A DNA stretch of 64,000 nt from Acidimicrobiia bacterium (GTDB lineage: Bacteria; Actinomycetota; Acidimicrobiia; Spongiisociales; UBA5794): positions 1-64,000 of the forward strand of contig DASWKR010000057.1 of NCBI GenBank assembly GCA_036396535.1, read 5' to 3'. A program made the translations under genes and the position numbers. Below, in pieces: positions 3,527 to 17,132 of the stretch (position 1 is the stretch's first letter; each line of letters begins with the position of its first letter). The notes beneath the pieces were generated by a model. It was not told the origin of the DNA. It made no database searches and saw only the letters and a list, made by a program, of their open reading frames with translations.

Positions 3527-5830
<2,304 letters not shown>

Positions 5831-10659: not shown

Positions 10660-11181
10660 ATGCTGGCGCTGACGGGACCCTTCTACATCACGGCTGTCCT
10701 GCTCATCGTGGGAGGAGCCCCGAAGATCCTGGAGCCCTCGGCGACCGCCGGAGCGCTCGGCTCGGTCGGCTTGCCCCGCTCCCGCCTGCTGGTCAGGCTC
10801 ATGGGTGTGGCCGAGGTGACGATCGGGGCGGCCGCCATTGCCTTCGGAGGACCGGTGACCGCGGCCCTCGTCGCGTCCGCCTACGTCGGCTTCGCGGCAT
10901 TCGTCGCCGCAGCCATGGCGCGGGGCGGCTCGGTGTCATCGTGCGGCTGCTTCGGGAGCGACGACACCCCTCCGACGTTCTTCCACCTCGCCATCGACGT
11001 CGCCGCTGCCGCAATCGCAGTCGCCGCCATGTCCTCACCTGTCGATGGAGTCGTTTCTTCCCTAGGGGAGAGTCCGCTGGCGGGCGTGCCGTTCGTTGCG
11101 CTCGTCGCCGTGGCCACCTGGTTCACGTATCTGGCGCTCAGCGTCCTGCCGACCGTCATCCCGAGAGGAAGCCACGAATGA
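10660..11181 (+). CDS. MauE/DoxX-like redox-associated membrane protein
   Basis: A 173-residue membrane protein with about four helices. It carries SSCGCFGSDDTPPTFFHL, the CGCFG block typical of MauE-like proteins, which support disulfide formation in exported partners. It heads a run of genes joined by overlaps; its stop overlaps the ATG of the Cys-rich Tat substrate (ATGA), implying coupled translation. In methylotrophs MauE and MauD are needed for maturation of methylamine dehydrogenase light chain, so the same task here is inferred for the next gene. Confidence 0.82.
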   Translation: MLALTGPFYITAVLLIVGGAPKILEPSATAGALGSVGLPRSRLLVRLMGVAEVTIGAAAIAFGGPVTAALVASAYVGFAAFVAAAMARGGSVSSCGCFGSDDTPPTFFHLAIDVAAAAIAVAAMSSPVDGVVSSLGESPLAGVPFVALVAVATWFTYLALSVLPTVIPRGSHE

Positions 11182-11798
11182 CGAAGACACTCGTCAACAG
11201 GACCATCCGGGTGATGTCGCGCCATGAGTCGCGCCGCAACTTCCTGCGCAAGTTCGCCCTCGTCGGATCGGCGCTGGTGACGGCGCCTCTCGACTTCCTC
11301 CTCAAACCGGTCTCCGCCTACGCCGCGGTGTGCGGCCCGGGCGCCGAGTGCAACCAGGGCTGGAGCGTCTTCTGCTGCACGGTGAACCGCGGGGTCAACA
11401 AGTGCCCCCCGGGGACCTTCGTCGGCGGATGGTGGAGAGCGTCGGGCTCGTCGTATTGCTGCGACTCGGGGGGCGGCGCCGGCAGCCGGTACTACATCGA
11501 CTGCCACCCGGAGTGCGAGTGCACGTCGGGCTGCGGCCCGTTCTGCACCTCGTCGTGCCTGGCGTGCAAGTGCCGCTGCAACAACGTCTCCTCGACGTGC
11601 GACCGGAGGCGCATCTGCTGCAACGTGTTCCGCTATGGCCAGTGCCACACGGAGATCGGATGCAGTGGAGGCGTAGCCTGCCGAGTCGTCACGTGCACTC
11701 CCCCGTACGTCCTGTTCGACTCTTGCGGCTCGTCGCTTCGCACCGACAACGCCACCGCCCAGCACACCGCCCCATGTCTTTCAGGACCATGTACCTGA
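11178..11798 (+). CDS. Tat-exported 26-Cys protein, MADH light-chain-like
   Basis: A 206-residue protein with a twin-arginine motif (SRRNFLRK, 18-25), a hydrophobic segment and probable cleavage after AYA near 49. The mature part has 26 Cys in about 155 residues. CPPGT at 76-80 followed by WW (85-86) resembles the Trp57 region of methylamine dehydrogenase light chain, and the order of Cys clusters is similar. Where that family has the second cofactor Trp before a Cys, this protein has Gln155-Cys156, so the tryptophan tryptophylquinone cofactor probably cannot form. A Cys-dense insert (about 109-141) is extra. No large-chain gene is present. It may be a structural or redox protein of the cell surface. 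Confidence 0.7.
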   Translation: MTKTLVNRTIRVMSRHESRRNFLRKFALVGSALVTAPLDFLLKPVSAYAAVCGPGAECNQGWSVFCCTVNRGVNKCPPGTFVGGWWRASGSSYCCDSGGGAGSRYYIDCHPECECTSGCGPFCTSSCLACKCRCNNVSSTCDRRRICCNVFRYGQCHTEIGCSGGVACRVVTCTPPYVLFDSCGSSLRTDNATAQHTAPCLSGPCT

Positions 11799-11820
11799 CC
11801 TCACACCGGGAGCCAGCACC

Positions 11821-12564
11821 ATGACAGCGCTCGTCGTCGTCGAAGCCGTCGCCATCCTCCTCCTCGGCCTGCTCGTCGCGGGCCTGCTGCGCAGCCACGC
11901 CGAGATCCTCCGCAAGCTCCACGACCTCGGCGTCCACCTCGACGACGACGAAGAGGCTCCGCGTGTGCCCGACCTGGCGTACGCCGAGTCCGTCACGCCT
12001 CCACGCGAGAGAGTCACACCTGCGTTCGACGTGTCTGGGCTCACGCACCGCAACGACGCCGTCGGGATCTCCGTGCGCGGCCAGGACCGGTCCACACTGC
12101 TCGCCTTCCTTTCGAGCGGGTGCAAGACCTGCAAGGGGTTCTGGGAGAGCTTCGCAACGGACGAGGCCCTCGGCTCCATCGGAAGCACTCGAGTCGTGAT
12201 CGTCACCAAGGACGACGCCGAGGAGAGCCCCACCAAGATCGCCAACCTCGCCCCAGCCGGCGTGACGCTCGTGAAGTCGTCCCAGGCATGGCTCGACTAC
12301 GAAGTACCCGGGTCACCGTACTTCGTGCTCGTCGACGGCCGGTCGGGCACCATCGGAGGCGAGGGCTCGGCTGGTACGTGGGACCAACTCGAGAACCTCC
12401 TGACGGAGGCGACCGCCGACGATGGCGACGCCAGGAGACGCCGCAAGTGGCAAGCCGATGCAACCAGGGAGGCGCAGGCAGACCGTGAGCTGATGGCCGC
12501 CGGCATCCATCCGGGCCATCCGAGTCTCTACCCCGAGCCAGAGGCGAAGTCCGAAACGCCATGA
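11821..12564 (+). CDS. MauD-like membrane-anchored thioredoxin
   Basis: A 247-residue protein: one N-terminal helix (about 4-24), a charged linker, and a thioredoxin-fold domain facing outside. The active site is SSGCKTCKGFW with Cys101 and Cys104; the cis-Pro segment is probably VPGSPYFVL. The C-terminal tail (about 200-247) is charged and Pro-rich. The layout matches MauD, the thioredoxin-like partner of MauE. Its job is likely oxidation or isomerisation of disulfides in the 26-Cys protein encoded 22 bp upstream. The start has GGGAGCC upstream. Confidence 0.82.
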   Translation: MTALVVVEAVAILLLGLLVAGLLRSHAEILRKLHDLGVHLDDDEEAPRVPDLAYAESVTPPRERVTPAFDVSGLTHRNDAVGISVRGQDRSTLLAFLSSGCKTCKGFWESFATDEALGSIGSTRVVIVTKDDAEESPTKIANLAPAGVTLVKSSQAWLDYEVPGSPYFVLVDGRSGTIGGEGSAGTWDQLENLLTEATADDGDARRRRKWQADATREAQADRELMAAGIHPGHPSLYPEPEAKSETP

Positions 12565-12638
12565 CGGCAGGACTCCTGCTGGCCATCGGGGTCGTCACGG
12601 CAGTGGCTGCCGGGCTGAGGTCGGCGTGGTCACCATGA
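12561..12638 (+). CDS. Possible 25-residue hydrophobic peptide
   Basis: A start overlapping the MauD-like stop (ATGA) opens a frame of 25 codons: MTAGLLLAIGVVTAVAAGLR followed by SAWSP. It would be a single-span peptide with a positive end. It ends 9 bp before the next gene. The same overlap style occurs in most junctions of this operon, which supports it, but it may be only a coupling device. Confidence 0.4.
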   Translation: MTAGLLLAIGVVTAVAAGLRSAWSP

Positions 12639-12647
12639 GGGGAGTCG

Positions 12648-13250
12648 ATGCTGGCGAGCATCACCCCGCTCGGCGAGCGGGGACGGCACAGGAGATGGGC
12701 GGTGACCGCCGGCTGGTACCTGGCGGGATCGGCGCTCGGGGGCGCGACGATCGGGGCAGCGATGGGCGCCGCCGGCTCCATCGTGCCTGAGTCGATTCGC
12801 CCAGCCGGAGCCGTGCTGACATGGCTCGCCTTCGCCCTCCTTGCGCTGGCGGCCGCGATCGAGCTGCGCCTGGTCCCTCTCGGGCTCCCCAGCCTGAGAC
12901 GCCAGGTCAACGAGAACTGGCTCAACATGTACCGCGGCTGGGTCGTTGGCGTCGGCTTCGGTTTCCAGCTCGGCCTCGCAGTGGTGACCATCATCACATC
13001 GCCTGCGATCCACGCCATGCTGGCGATCGCCTTCCTCACCCACTCACCCGCGGCCGGGCTCCTGGTGGGCGTGGCGTTCGGCGTGGCCCGGACCTTGCCT
13101 CTCCTGACGACGATGCGGGTGACGAGCCCGGACCGCCTCGTCCGCCTCCACACGATGTTCCTGGCGGCGAGCCGCCCAGCGAACGGTGTGGTCGCGGCCG
13201 TGCTCGTGACGTCTGCCGTGGTTGCAGCCGTCGCAAGCGGCTTCGCATGA
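12648..13250 (+). CDS. Cys-less polytopic membrane protein in mau-like operon
   Basis: A 200-residue protein with about five or six helices. The central sequence NENWLNMYRGWVVGVGFGFQ begins the segment most likely to be diagnostic. Its position beside MauE- and MauD-like genes is that of MauF, a DsbD/CcdA relative that moves electrons to the outside. However, it has no cysteine at all, so it cannot carry thiol electrons itself. It may be a degenerate member or a transporter of other kind. The start ATG has AGGGGAG upstream. The stop overlaps the next start. Confidence 0.65.
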   Translation: MLASITPLGERGRHRRWAVTAGWYLAGSALGGATIGAAMGAAGSIVPESIRPAGAVLTWLAFALLALAAAIELRLVPLGLPSLRRQVNENWLNMYRGWVVGVGFGFQLGLAVVTIITSPAIHAMLAIAFLTHSPAAGLLVGVAFGVARTLPLLTTMRVTSPDRLVRLHTMFLAASRPANGVVAAVLVTSAVVAAVASGFA

Positions 13251-13720
13251 GGGTCGCGGCACATGGGCTCACCGTGGCAACGCCCGACGGATGGGAGACG
13301 CGTATCGAGCGGCCCGAGGCGATCGAGGAAGGAGCGGTCGCGCTGCCCCGGATACACGCCGCCACGTTCCCGCTCCCGGAGGAGCGCGGCGACTTCGGAT
13401 CGGGTGCGGTCGACCTCATGGCAGGCGGCGACGTGTTCGTCTCGCTCCTCGAGTACGAGGCACGGGAGGCGGAGAGCGCCCTGTTTGGCAAGCGCGGGCT
13501 CCCCCGCACCCTCGATCCGGAGCGGTTCAAGACGAACCAGCTGCAGCGCTGGATCCCGGGCCAGGCCGGCCTGCAGGAGTTCCTCGTCGAGAAAGGCCGG
13601 CCGTTCTGCCTGTACGTCGTGATCGGCAGCTTCCTCAACCGGGTGACGCTCGCACAGCTCGCCGGCGAGCTGCTCGCCACGATCATCGTCGAGTCTCCGA
13701 CACCGCCCGGCATCAGATGA
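13247..13720 (+). CDS. Conserved-looking protein of unknown function
   Basis: A 157-residue soluble protein with no signal peptide and no motif I recognise. It has one Cys. Its ATG overlaps the upstream stop and its stop overlaps the next ATG (both ATGA), which makes it a firm operon member. The fold looks mixed alpha/beta (VFVSLLEYE, FCLYVVIGSFLN). It could be a cytosolic accessory to the export system; this is position-based inference only. Confidence 0.7.
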   Translation: MRVAAHGLTVATPDGWETRIERPEAIEEGAVALPRIHAATFPLPEERGDFGSGAVDLMAGGDVFVSLLEYEAREAESALFGKRGLPRTLDPERFKTNQLQRWIPGQAGLQEFLVEKGRPFCLYVVIGSFLNRVTLAQLAGELLATIIVESPTPPGIR

Positions 13721-16011
13721 GGGCCGCGGTACCCATCGCCGTGCTGGTCGTGGTTGCAATCGCCTCCCCCGCCGCGGCCGCGGACGAGCAATTCGTCTCG
13801 CTCGAGTCGCGCGACGGCGGGTTCACGTACGAGGTCGTCGTGCTCGAAGGTGACGGATCGGGTAAACGGCGCCCAATCGACGGCCAGGTGATCGGGCGAC
13901 CTGCCCTCGCTCCCAACGGCAACCGCATCGTGTACGCCGCGCCCCTGTCCGACGGCACGGACGGCCGTTGGGGCATCTTCCGATCGAAGATCGACGGCAC
14001 TGGGAGGAAGCGGCTCACGGCCCCCCCGATCGCCGACGGTGACCCTGCGTGGTCGTCCGACGGGCGATGGATCGCATACTCGCGGGTCACCAAGGGGAGC
14101 CTGCGCGCCGACACCTGCTGCATCATCCGGGTGATGCGCACCACGGGGAAGAACCAGGCGAAGGTCCCCGGCACGCGCGGCGGCATCAACCCCTCGTGGT
14201 CCCCGAGCGGCAACCGGATCGTGTACGAGAAGAACGGCGGGCTGTGGGTGACCAACCTCAACGGCCGCAACACGTATCAACTCGCCGTGAACGGTCGCGA
14301 GCCTGCCTGGTCGCCGGACGGCGACAAGGTCGCCTACGTCCGCAGCGTTGGAGGCGGTCACGAGCTCGTCGTGATCCCGGCCGGAGGCGGTGCGCCGAAA
14401 GTCCGGGCGGCCGGCTCCCGATCGCTCGAGTCTCCGGTGTGGGACGAGGACGGCTCGACGCTGTATTTCGTGCGATACGCCGGCACCGGCTACGACGGAC
14501 GTAGCGGCACGGCGGTGTGGTGGGACCGGGCCGGAACCCCCGCAGAGCGACTCTTCACACAGAAGAGGGCACTCGTCCACCTCGCCCACTCGGGCGGTCG
14601 CCAGGTGGACTGCGACCTCGACGGCGACCTCATCGGCGATCTCGCCGTGGGCGCGCCGGACGACGACGAGGCGGGTCAGCGCGATTCAGGAGTCGTCAAC
14701 GTGTTCATGGGTCGGACGGGCGGTCTCGGTACGGGCGACGACGATCTGTGGCATCAGGGGAGGCCGATCGGCGGCTCTCCCGGGCCCGACGACGGGTTCG
14801 GGGCGGCACTGGCGTGCGGGGACTTCGACGGGGACGGGCGTGACGACCTGGCCGTCGGGGCACCGACGGACTTCCTCGGACGGGGTGTGGTGAACGTCAT
14901 CTACGGTTCCGGGTCGGGGCTGATCGCTGTGGGCTCCCAGCTCCTCCACCAGGACGTCGATGGTGTCGACGGGGCAGCGGAGAGCGGCGACCGGTTCGGC
15001 GCCTCGCTGGCGGCAGGCGACTTCGACGGCGATGGACGAGACGATCTCGCCATCGGAGCCCCAGGCGACGGCGCCGGAGGAGCGGTGAACATCCTCTATG
15101 GATCGGCGAGCGGTCTGACCGCCGCAGGCAGCCAGCTGTGGAGCCAGGCCACGTCCGGCATCAAGGGCGACGCCGAGGCGGGCGACGGGTTCGGCTCCTC
15201 ACTTGCCGTGGGTGACTTCGACGGCAATGGGCGAGACGATCTCGCCGTCGGGGTGCCCGGCGAGAACCGCAACCGCGGGGCAGCCGCCGTCATCTATGGC
15301 AAGGCGTCCGGGCTGACGGCCGCCGGTGACCAGCTCTGGCGACAAGGCTCGTCGGGGATACAGGGCGATGCCGAACGCGGCGACGTGTTCGGCAAGGCGG
15401 TTGCGGCCGGGGACCTCGACGGGGACGGCAGGGACGACCTCGCCGTCGGCGCGCCCGGGGAGAACGACGACAGGGGCGCCGTCGCGGTCCTCTACGGGTC
15501 GAAGTCGAAGCTCGCGGCCTCCGGCGACGACTCATGGATGCAGGGCTCGGGAGGCGTGCGCGGTTCGGCGGAGCGCAATGATCGGTTCGGAGATGCCCTG
15601 GCGATCGGCGACTTCGATCACGACGGCCACGGCGATCTCGCCATCGGAGTACCTGGTGAGAACCAGCGGCGAGGCGCGGTGGCGGTCCTCTACGGCACGG
15701 TGACGGGCGTCGACGCGTCGCGCGACGACCTCTGGCGGCAGGGCAGCCACGGAGTCAAGGGCAAAGGGCAGAAGGGAGACCTGTTCGGCAAGTCGCTCTC
15801 TGCCGGCGACTTCGACGGCGACCGCAGGGGCGACCTGGCGATCGGCGTCCCCCGCGAGGACCACGCCGGATCGCCCAACGAGGGGGCGGTCAACGTGCTG
15901 TACGGCTCGGCGGGCGGGCTGTCGGCCGAGGGTGACGACCTGTGGCGCCAGGACGGGTCGGGCGTGGCCGGCACAGGGGCCGCCGGGGACAAGCTGGGGA
16001 TCCTCCGCTGA
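13717..16011 (+). CDS. Secreted TolB-propeller plus FG-GAP repeat protein
   Basis: A 764-residue exported protein (signal peptide MRAAVPIAVLVVVAIASPAAAA). Residues about 25-290 contain PD40/WD40-like strands (PSWSPSGNRIVYEK, PAWSPDGDKVAYV), as in TolB propellers. From about 297 to the end are seven FG-GAP/integrin-alpha-type blades, each with a calcium-loop core such as DFDGDGRDDLAVGAP and a VNVLYG strand. Such blades bind Ca2+ and mediate surface interactions. It is the last gene of the operon that begins at 10660. The pairing of a propeller with FG-GAP blades in a MauD/MauE operon is unusual. Confidence 0.85.
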   Translation: MRAAVPIAVLVVVAIASPAAAADEQFVSLESRDGGFTYEVVVLEGDGSGKRRPIDGQVIGRPALAPNGNRIVYAAPLSDGTDGRWGIFRSKIDGTGRKRLTAPPIADGDPAWSSDGRWIAYSRVTKGSLRADTCCIIRVMRTTGKNQAKVPGTRGGINPSWSPSGNRIVYEKNGGLWVTNLNGRNTYQLAVNGREPAWSPDGDKVAYVRSVGGGHELVVIPAGGGAPKVRAAGSRSLESPVWDEDGSTLYFVRYAGTGYDGRSGTAVWWDRAGTPAERLFTQKRALVHLAHSGGRQVDCDLDGDLIGDLAVGAPDDDEAGQRDSGVVNVFMGRTGGLGTGDDDLWHQGRPIGGSPGPDDGFGAALACGDFDGDGRDDLAVGAPTDFLGRGVVNVIYGSGSGLIAVGSQLLHQDVDGVDGAAESGDRFGASLAAGDFDGDGRDDLAIGAPGDGAGGAVNILYGSASGLTAAGSQLWSQATSGIKGDAEAGDGFGSSLAVGDFDGNGRDDLAVGVPGENRNRGAAAVIYGKASGLTAAGDQLWRQGSSGIQGDAERGDVFGKAVAAGDLDGDGRDDLAVGAPGENDDRGAVAVLYGSKSKLAASGDDSWMQGSGGVRGSAERNDRFGDALAIGDFDHDGHGDLAIGVPGENQRRGAVAVLYGTVTGVDASRDDLWRQGSHGVKGKGQKGDLFGKSLSAGDFDGDRRGDLAIGVPREDHAGSPNEGAVNVLYGSAGGLSAEGDDLWRQDGSGVAGTGAAGDKLGILR

Positions 16012-16067: not shown

Positions 16068-17132
16068 TCAGCCGTGCTCGCCCCCGGTGGCGACGAAGCC
16101 GAAGACGGCACGGCCCCCATCCGACGACTCGACGACCACCCGGAACTCATCGCCGATGGGAGCGTCCGGGAACTCGACCCTGACCTCCCACTTGCCACGC
16201 TCGTCGATGGTGACCCGGCCCGAGCCGTACGGGGACTCGACAACGACCCTGGCGCCCGGCGTGCCCGTCCCGTAGAACACGTCGAACGGGATCGGCTCGC
16301 CGCAGGACCCGTACTTCTGGTGGGCGGTGAACTCGTGGCCAACCCGGCAGACCCGCTCCATCTCGAACCCGACCCGGGCATCACCCGACTCGGCCGCCAC
16401 CCGGAACGGCTGGTTGCACGGCGCCTCGAACGCCACCCGCAACTCCCACACCCCGGCGTCGTTCACCTTGGTGGCACCGCGCCCGTACTCGGAACCGACA
16501 TGGACCTCGGCACCGGGCCGGCCCGTCCCCCAATAGAAGTTCACGACCGGGTTCTCACCATCCACCACCTCGTACTTCTGATGAGCGATGAACTCATGCG
16601 TCTCGTCGTAGAAGACGACCACGTGGTCGCGGCTCATGGTGCCGTCCGGGGCGGTGGCGACCGCCACGATGCGGTTCCGTCCGCCTTCGAGCTCGACCCG
16701 CGCCCACCAGTGTCCCGAGTCATCGACGGTGGCGTGATGATCGGCGACGGCAACGGTGGCCGGCAGCTCGACCTTGCCGGAAACCACGATCACCTTCGAG
16801 TCGACGTGGGCGCCGTGCTCCGGACGCAGGATCTCGATCCGCGGTGCCGCGTCGCCGTCGTCGTCGCCGTCGCCGTCGCCTCGGTCGCCTTCGTCGCCGG
16901 CGGTCCTCTCATCTCCGCCCGACGGCTCGGCGCCGACCTGCCGTGCCTCGTCGCCAGTCTCGGCGGTTGCCTGGGTCTGCCCGGCTTGGCCGCCGGCGAG
17001 GGCAGTCGCGGCCGCCGTGTCGTCGCCGACATCGTCCGGGCCCCATGGTCCGACGCCTGCCATGGCGACGCCGCCGATGAGCAGGACGGCGAATGCGACC
17101 GCGATCACTGCGAACCCTCGCTTCTTCAACAT
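16068..17132 (-). CDS. Secreted/anchored protein with duplicated C-terminal module
   Basis: A 354-residue protein with an N-terminal hydrophobic signal or anchor (about 7-27), a low-complexity Asp/Gly/Glu linker (about 30-95), an Ig-like beta domain (about 97-175, PRIEILRPEHGAHVDSK) and two tandem modules of about 90 residues. Each module begins HEFxAHQKY, then has FYxGTGxPGAxVxVxSxYG and a WExRVxF strand, with a disulfide-capable Cys pair in the second. It is likely an extracytoplasmic adhesion or cell-wall protein. GGGAG precedes the ATG. It converges on the FG-GAP gene, and no enzyme function is seen. Confidence 0.78.
   Translation of the reverse strand: MLKKRGFAVIAVAFAVLLIGGVAMAGVGPWGPDDVGDDTAAATALAGGQAGQTQATAETGDEARQVGAEPSGGDERTAGDEGDRGDGDGDDDGDAAPRIEILRPEHGAHVDSKVIVVSGKVELPATVAVADHHATVDDSGHWWARVELEGGRNRIVAVATAPDGTMSRDHVVVFYDETHEFIAHQKYEVVDGENPVVNFYWGTGRPGAEVHVGSEYGRGATKVNDAGVWELRVAFEAPCNQPFRVAAESGDARVGFEMERVCRVGHEFTAHQKYGSCGEPIPFDVFYGTGTPGARVVVESPYGSGRVTIDERGKWEVRVEFPDAPIGDEFRVVVESSDGGRAVFGFVATGGEHG

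Follow-up and report, generated by a model that had tools for sequence, protein, structure and literature searches.

A recurrent actinobacterial mau-like gene set with a probable selenocysteine-containing MauF homologue, proposed to mature and display a cysteine-rich protein

We propose that a five-gene module of Actinomycetota, joined by a sixth gene in the genome studied here, exports, disulfide-bonds and displays one cysteine-rich, light-chain-like protein, a reading to which we give a probability of roughly 0.72. The locus lies in the window, by which we mean the whole 64,000-nucleotide stretch of contig DASWKR010000057.1 that was analysed, from a draft Acidimicrobiia genome of 3.1 Mb in 94 contigs that is 96% complete. 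Six genes, A to F, run in the same direction on the forward strand between positions 10660 and 16011. A preliminary description had recognised here a mau-like operon of six genes joined mostly by ATGA overlaps, and this held up, with all six open reading frames (ORFs) confirmed where they had been placed, a conserved neighbourhood in relatives, and ATGA overlaps between A and B, D and E, and E and F; the corrected start of D, described below, overlaps C in the same manner. A Glucodextran_B and Big_6 Ig-like protein is encoded on the minus strand at 16071–17132, convergent with F.

The light chain of methylamine dehydrogenase (MADH) is matured with the help of MauD, MauE and MauF, the last sharing its maturation step with the other two. 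Paracoccus needs both MauE and MauD to metabolise methylamine, and a part for MauE in forming the light-chain disulfides has been suggested (van der Palen 1997, cited in PMC7794033). Proteobacterial MauE, MauD and MauF from annotated mau operons served as our references. Gene A (10660–11181) encodes a 173-residue membrane protein of the MauE/DoxX family with a CGC motif, which passed the PF07291 cut-off (51.9 bits against 27) and matched MauE by hhalign (97.3%, E 1.8e-11). Gene C (11821–12564) encodes a membrane-anchored thioredoxin with a CKTC active site, its CxxC being invariant among homologues, that matched MauD by hhalign (98.3%, E 1.4e-14); judged by this profile match, C is a distant MauD homologue despite scoring 34.2 bits against TIGR02661, the MauD equivalog model, below the cut-off of 188.6. 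In hhalign, the profile of each accessory protein (A, C and D) found its own counterpart (MauE, MauD and MauF respectively) at 97–98% probability, with no cross-matches. A second MauE-family gene lies elsewhere in the genome (G000 C48:64234–64584, L063), near aminotransferase-like and LigD-like genes, and was rejected as a member of a mau set, having no Cys-rich partner beside it.

The remaining accessory gene, D, turned out to be longer than its plain ORF. It had been described as a membrane protein at 12648–13250 in a set likened to MauE and MauD; the membrane assignment and both homologies stand, but that ORF is truncated at its 5′ end, with the conserved frame running from an ATG at 12561, and a MauF, very likely a selenoprotein, had been missed. 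Read upstream in frame, the window gives '...GLRSAWSP-TGA-GES-MLASITPLGERGR', a layout found in 46 loci in all, where MauF has '...LLSTWSP-C-GYSSISLLRPDGRG' and L038 and L100 have 'WSPCGLSMLSTITP'. The in-frame TGA (12636–12638) occupies the Cys position of the MauF motif WSP-C-G and is proposed to encode selenocysteine (Sec), U26 of a 229-residue protein (12561–13250). When U was read as C, the hhalign E-value of D against MauF went from 1.3e-14 to 1.6e-21 (99.4%, 174 columns including WSP-C-G), and the corrected D scored over the cut-off of the Pfam DsbD_2 model. By these alignments D is a MauF homologue, whose full-length form would have been hidden, and its plain ORF truncated, because the putative selenocysteine codon is read as a stop.

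That D is a selenoprotein, with its in-frame TGA read as selenocysteine, is very likely given the TGA/Cys alignment, a hairpin that is lost in Cys forms, and the presence of SelA, SelB, SelD and tRNA-Sec. The codon at this site is TGA in 58 homologues and Cys (TGC/TGT) in 11, with TAA or TAG in none, and both before and after the TGA the frame and the neighbouring residues are conserved. Eight nucleotides 3′ of it lies a SECIS-like hairpin, GATGCT-GGCG-AGCATC (12647–12662), which matched no known SECIS in an Rfam search. Its arms are GATGCT/AGCATC in the window's clade and GATGGT/ACCATC in a second clade, a complete exchange of C-G for G-C. When shared ancestry is ignored, not one of 500 shuffles attained the covariation score of the hairpin, nor did any slid register; at least five of the six pairs form in 57 of 58 TGA forms versus 2 of 11 Cys forms (Fisher p 9e-9); and the serine codon within the 3′ arm is AGC in 46 of 46 cases, versus 27% of serine codons across the module.

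The same observations bear on whether D could instead be two genes, the first encoding a membrane peptide of 25 residues that stops at the TGA, the second restarting by translational coupling at ATG 12648. The shorter ORF does possess a start codon, preceded in the window by a Shine-Dalgarno-like GGGGAG-N3-ATG after the TGA, but the single frame conserved across the TGA in all homologues, the Cys that replaces it in 11 of them and in MauF, the lack of TAA or TAG at the site and the loss of the hairpin in Cys forms all speak against two genes. Moreover, synonymous variation is seen in the Gly and Ser codons that separate TGA from ATG, and L118 has CTG where the restart ATG is supposed. We regard such a split as scarcely credible, and the reading of D as one selenoprotein gene is retained in what follows.

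The window's genome encodes SelB, SelA and SelD, with selA and selB adjacent, and its tRNA-Sec was detected by both Infernal and ARAGORN. Among genomes with TGA-type D, 41 of 44 have a clear tRNA-Sec, the remaining three being drafts that all have SelB, and 5 of 8 genomes of the same clade with only Cys-type D are without it. One in-frame TGA was counted in the SelD match (G000 C35:175508–176434, L143), and SelD of this genome may itself be a selenoprotein. The 119 prokaryotic selenoprotein families inventoried in 2026 (PMC13188914) do not include MauF, NCBIfam holds no model for the family, and our literature search found MauF and selenocysteine nowhere treated together. Sec-type MauF is very likely a new selenoprotein family, unlisted so far.

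Another Sec-MauF clade of Actinomycetota, reading 'FGP-U-GLSMVETITPVVHGG', lies next to MauD, MauE and another Tat protein, one with 10 Cys, which suggests that Sec-MauF may serve more than one Cys-rich client. Across the loci of this second orphan mau-like module (L164–L177, for example L170:4964–6508), MauF is of the Sec type in 11 and of the Cys type in 3, and the Tat protein has a RINGD motif. At L172, a Cys-type MauF homologue continues in frame after position 5815 into a long extension with a propeller-like look.

We searched B-encoding loci with A to F by tblastn, found the same genes adjoining B in relatives, and then used clean profiles for A, B, C, D and E. These profiles located about 60 loci, in the orders ABCDE (21 times), ACDEB (15 times) and, more rarely, CDEAB or E′D′C′AB. 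Actinomycetota repeatedly carry MauE, B, MauD, D and E together, and the constant gene content despite changing order argues for a functional unit; the profile matches place the five-gene set, variously ordered, in dozens of genomes, far beyond what chance would be expected to give. The checks that had been proposed, of the gene order in other actinobacteria and of mauD and mauE homologues beside the Cys-rich protein, showed a conserved neighbourhood in several orders, with accessory genes accompanying B.

Of 396 genomes sampled evenly across the phylum, 30 encode B. All 30 also have E, which turned up in one further genome, G420, on a contig that breaks off 3′ of E, at the place expected for B. 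Gene E (13247–13720) encodes a conserved 157-residue protein with no match in Pfam, NCBIfam or the PDB, and in the sampled genomes it was seen only with the module. D is present in all sampled genomes bearing B/E, inside or outside the cluster. Genomes with a D-less module (L158–L163) encode a MauF of the Cys type at another place, and three of them keep tRNA-Sec. A secreted protein with SLH-like repeats adjoins the module in 12 loci (for example L042:4529–5524). The characterisation of the set as an orphan also stands: within the operon, the extent covered for these two, there is neither a MauB large chain nor MauG, and no PF02975 light chain was found in the window's own genome or, over the cut-off, in 296 genomes of the phylum.

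The presumed client, B (11178–11798), is a 206-residue Tat substrate with 26 cysteines, a light-chain-like candidate whose fold weakly matches that of TTQ light chains. Its head is conserved, with invariant GWW, RY..DC, FRYG.C and CR...C (FRYGQC and CR..TC in the window). In most homologues this head is followed by a C-terminal surface region: LGFP (22 of 58), SLH (6 of 58) or CWB2 (5 of 58) domains, or, in other relatives, FG-GAP/VCBS-like and propeller-like repeats visible in their sequences. Relatives such as L032, L050, L054 and L042 differ in the C-terminal half of B, where LGFP, SLH, CWB2 and propeller-type repeats replace one another. In loci with a short B (L028–L030, L039, L040, L117 and L118), a separate F-type propeller gene follows E. 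In the window, F (13717–16011) encodes a secreted TolB/PD40 and FG-GAP propeller protein, as judged from domain matches, and likely replaces, as a separate protein, the surface domain that relatives carry at the C-terminus of B. The fused domains, or an F-type gene accompanying a short B, suggest that the head would be held on the cell envelope, which indirectly supports the surface display envisaged by the preliminary description. B, alone or as a profile, matched no PDB sequence, and PADLOC returned nothing for it. Selenocysteine in the B homologues L093–L096 was considered and rejected, the in-frame TGA there being the natural stop of a short B.

Sequence comparison of B with TTQ light chains gave no match to PF02975 and a short match to the light chains of MADH and the related aromatic amine dehydrogenase (AADH), N.CPPGT..W..C, that was reached by 3–5 of 300 shuffles with ancestry ignored. 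A first structure model of B (pLDDT 66.7) yielded no useful fold match. A template-free AlphaFold2 model of the compact B head (pLDDT 79, pTM 0.76), compared by Foldseek with 350,542 PDB chains, had as its top match an AADH light chain, weakly (E 7.1, prob 0.03), and VIA gave Z of at least 2 solely for AADH light chains, again weakly (Z 2.2–2.5, 62–63 residues, 2.6–2.8 Å). At the ungapped start of the alignment, two conserved light-chain cysteines fall on Cys17 and Cys27 of the B model. When aligned by hand, the second Trp of TTQ lines up with Gln86 of the model, a nearly invariant residue, which makes a normal TTQ unlikely in B. On balance, a TTQ-light-chain-like fold is somewhat more probable than not for the B head.

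This fold match raises the question of whether B is itself a quinoprotein light chain with a modified Trp, part of a surface redox enzyme in which F or a fused propeller would act as the large chain. Besides the AADH match and the placement of the two cysteines, the invariance of GWW and of the Asp in RY..DC would suit such an enzyme, as would the propellers, MADH large chains being propellers likewise. Weighing against it are the Gln in place of the second Trp, the failure to match PF02975, an operon without a MauG-like gene, and the many homologues that bear SLH, CWB2 or LGFP in place of a propeller; in addition, a neighbour survey of module loci found no recurrent cytochrome, cupredoxin or other electron carrier beside the module. 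We consider a quinoprotein role unlikely. A more specific version, in which an envelope-displayed B of TTQ-like fold bears a new Trp-based or cross-linked redox cofactor whose construction needs the Sec-MauF relay, is likewise doubtful; if true, B would be a selenium-dependent surface quinoprotein system new to knowledge.

It could also be asked whether B is a RiPP precursor with MauE and MauD as tailoring factors, since mauE and mauD beside Cys-rich precursors have been proposed in some Streptomyces clusters (PMC7794033, in an excerpt). Against this, B and its homologues span about 200 to 700 residues and carry a Tat signal and fused envelope domains, and its neighbourhood shows no recurrent enzyme of the protease, lanthipeptide or ATP-grasp type, making a RiPP precursor very improbable.

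Our preferred reading therefore remains the maturation and display of B. The orphan status, the conserved neighbourhood and the accessory genes found with B agree with the original suggestion that the set is dedicated to one Cys-rich Tat substrate. We envisage that B is exported by Tat, after which A, C and D would, by analogy, oxidise, isomerise and repair its disulfides: the CKTC thioredoxin C would make or reshuffle them, and the MauE-type A would recycle C. D, a DsbD/CcdA-like protein, is predicted to carry its single Sec in the first transmembrane segment, and in 38 of 47 homologues it has no Cys besides the Sec, so it would have to act via a mixed bond with a partner, the simplest candidates being the CKTC motif in C or the CGC motif in A. 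The Sec may join C or A in a mixed selenylsulfide and hand on reducing equivalents, a relay that would let wrongly paired cysteines of B be corrected; which way electrons pass through D is assumed solely by analogy with the DsbD/CcdA family. Selenocysteine at this position could provide a fast, low-pKa relay resistant to over-oxidation. The mature head would then be held on the envelope by a fused domain or, in this genome, probably together with F.

Should this be correct, the list of selenoproteins would gain a family that is widespread in Actinomycetota and was missed through a start cut at the Sec codon, and the little-studied MauF step would be seen to rely on the residue at the WSP-C/U-G site being redox-active. 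The maturation of a multi-disulfide protein by MauD, MauE and MauF would become directly testable, and B and its relatives would form a new class of envelope-displayed, disulfide-rich proteins with interchangeable wall-binding domains.

Among known systems, the candidate RiPP clusters of Streptomyces share orphan mauE and mauD homologues next to Cys-rich proteins, but their precursors are short peptides, and MauF and Sec are not described in the excerpt concerned (PMC7794033). TsoB, a bacterial selenoprotein of the thiol-disulfide type resembling a rhodanese/DsbD fusion, is similarly a DsbD-related membrane protein with UGA-encoded Sec at a redox Cys position (PMC13188914); unlike TsoB-type selenoproteins, D has a single U without UxxC. 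TTQ light chains (AADH; 2agy, 2i0r, 2h47) match the B model weakly in fold, with compatible Cys and Asp positions, whereas B has twice the cysteines, lacks a significant sequence match and apparently misses the second TTQ Trp. The mau systems of Paracoccus and Methylobacterium have counterparts here of all three accessory proteins, MauF, MauE and MauD, as well as an adjoining Cys-rich Tat substrate with a long N-region. In contrast to them, the operon described here has no large chain, MauG, amicyanin or PF02975 light chain; it has Sec in place of Cys in MauF, an extra protein, E, and a substrate that in relatives bears wall-binding domains.
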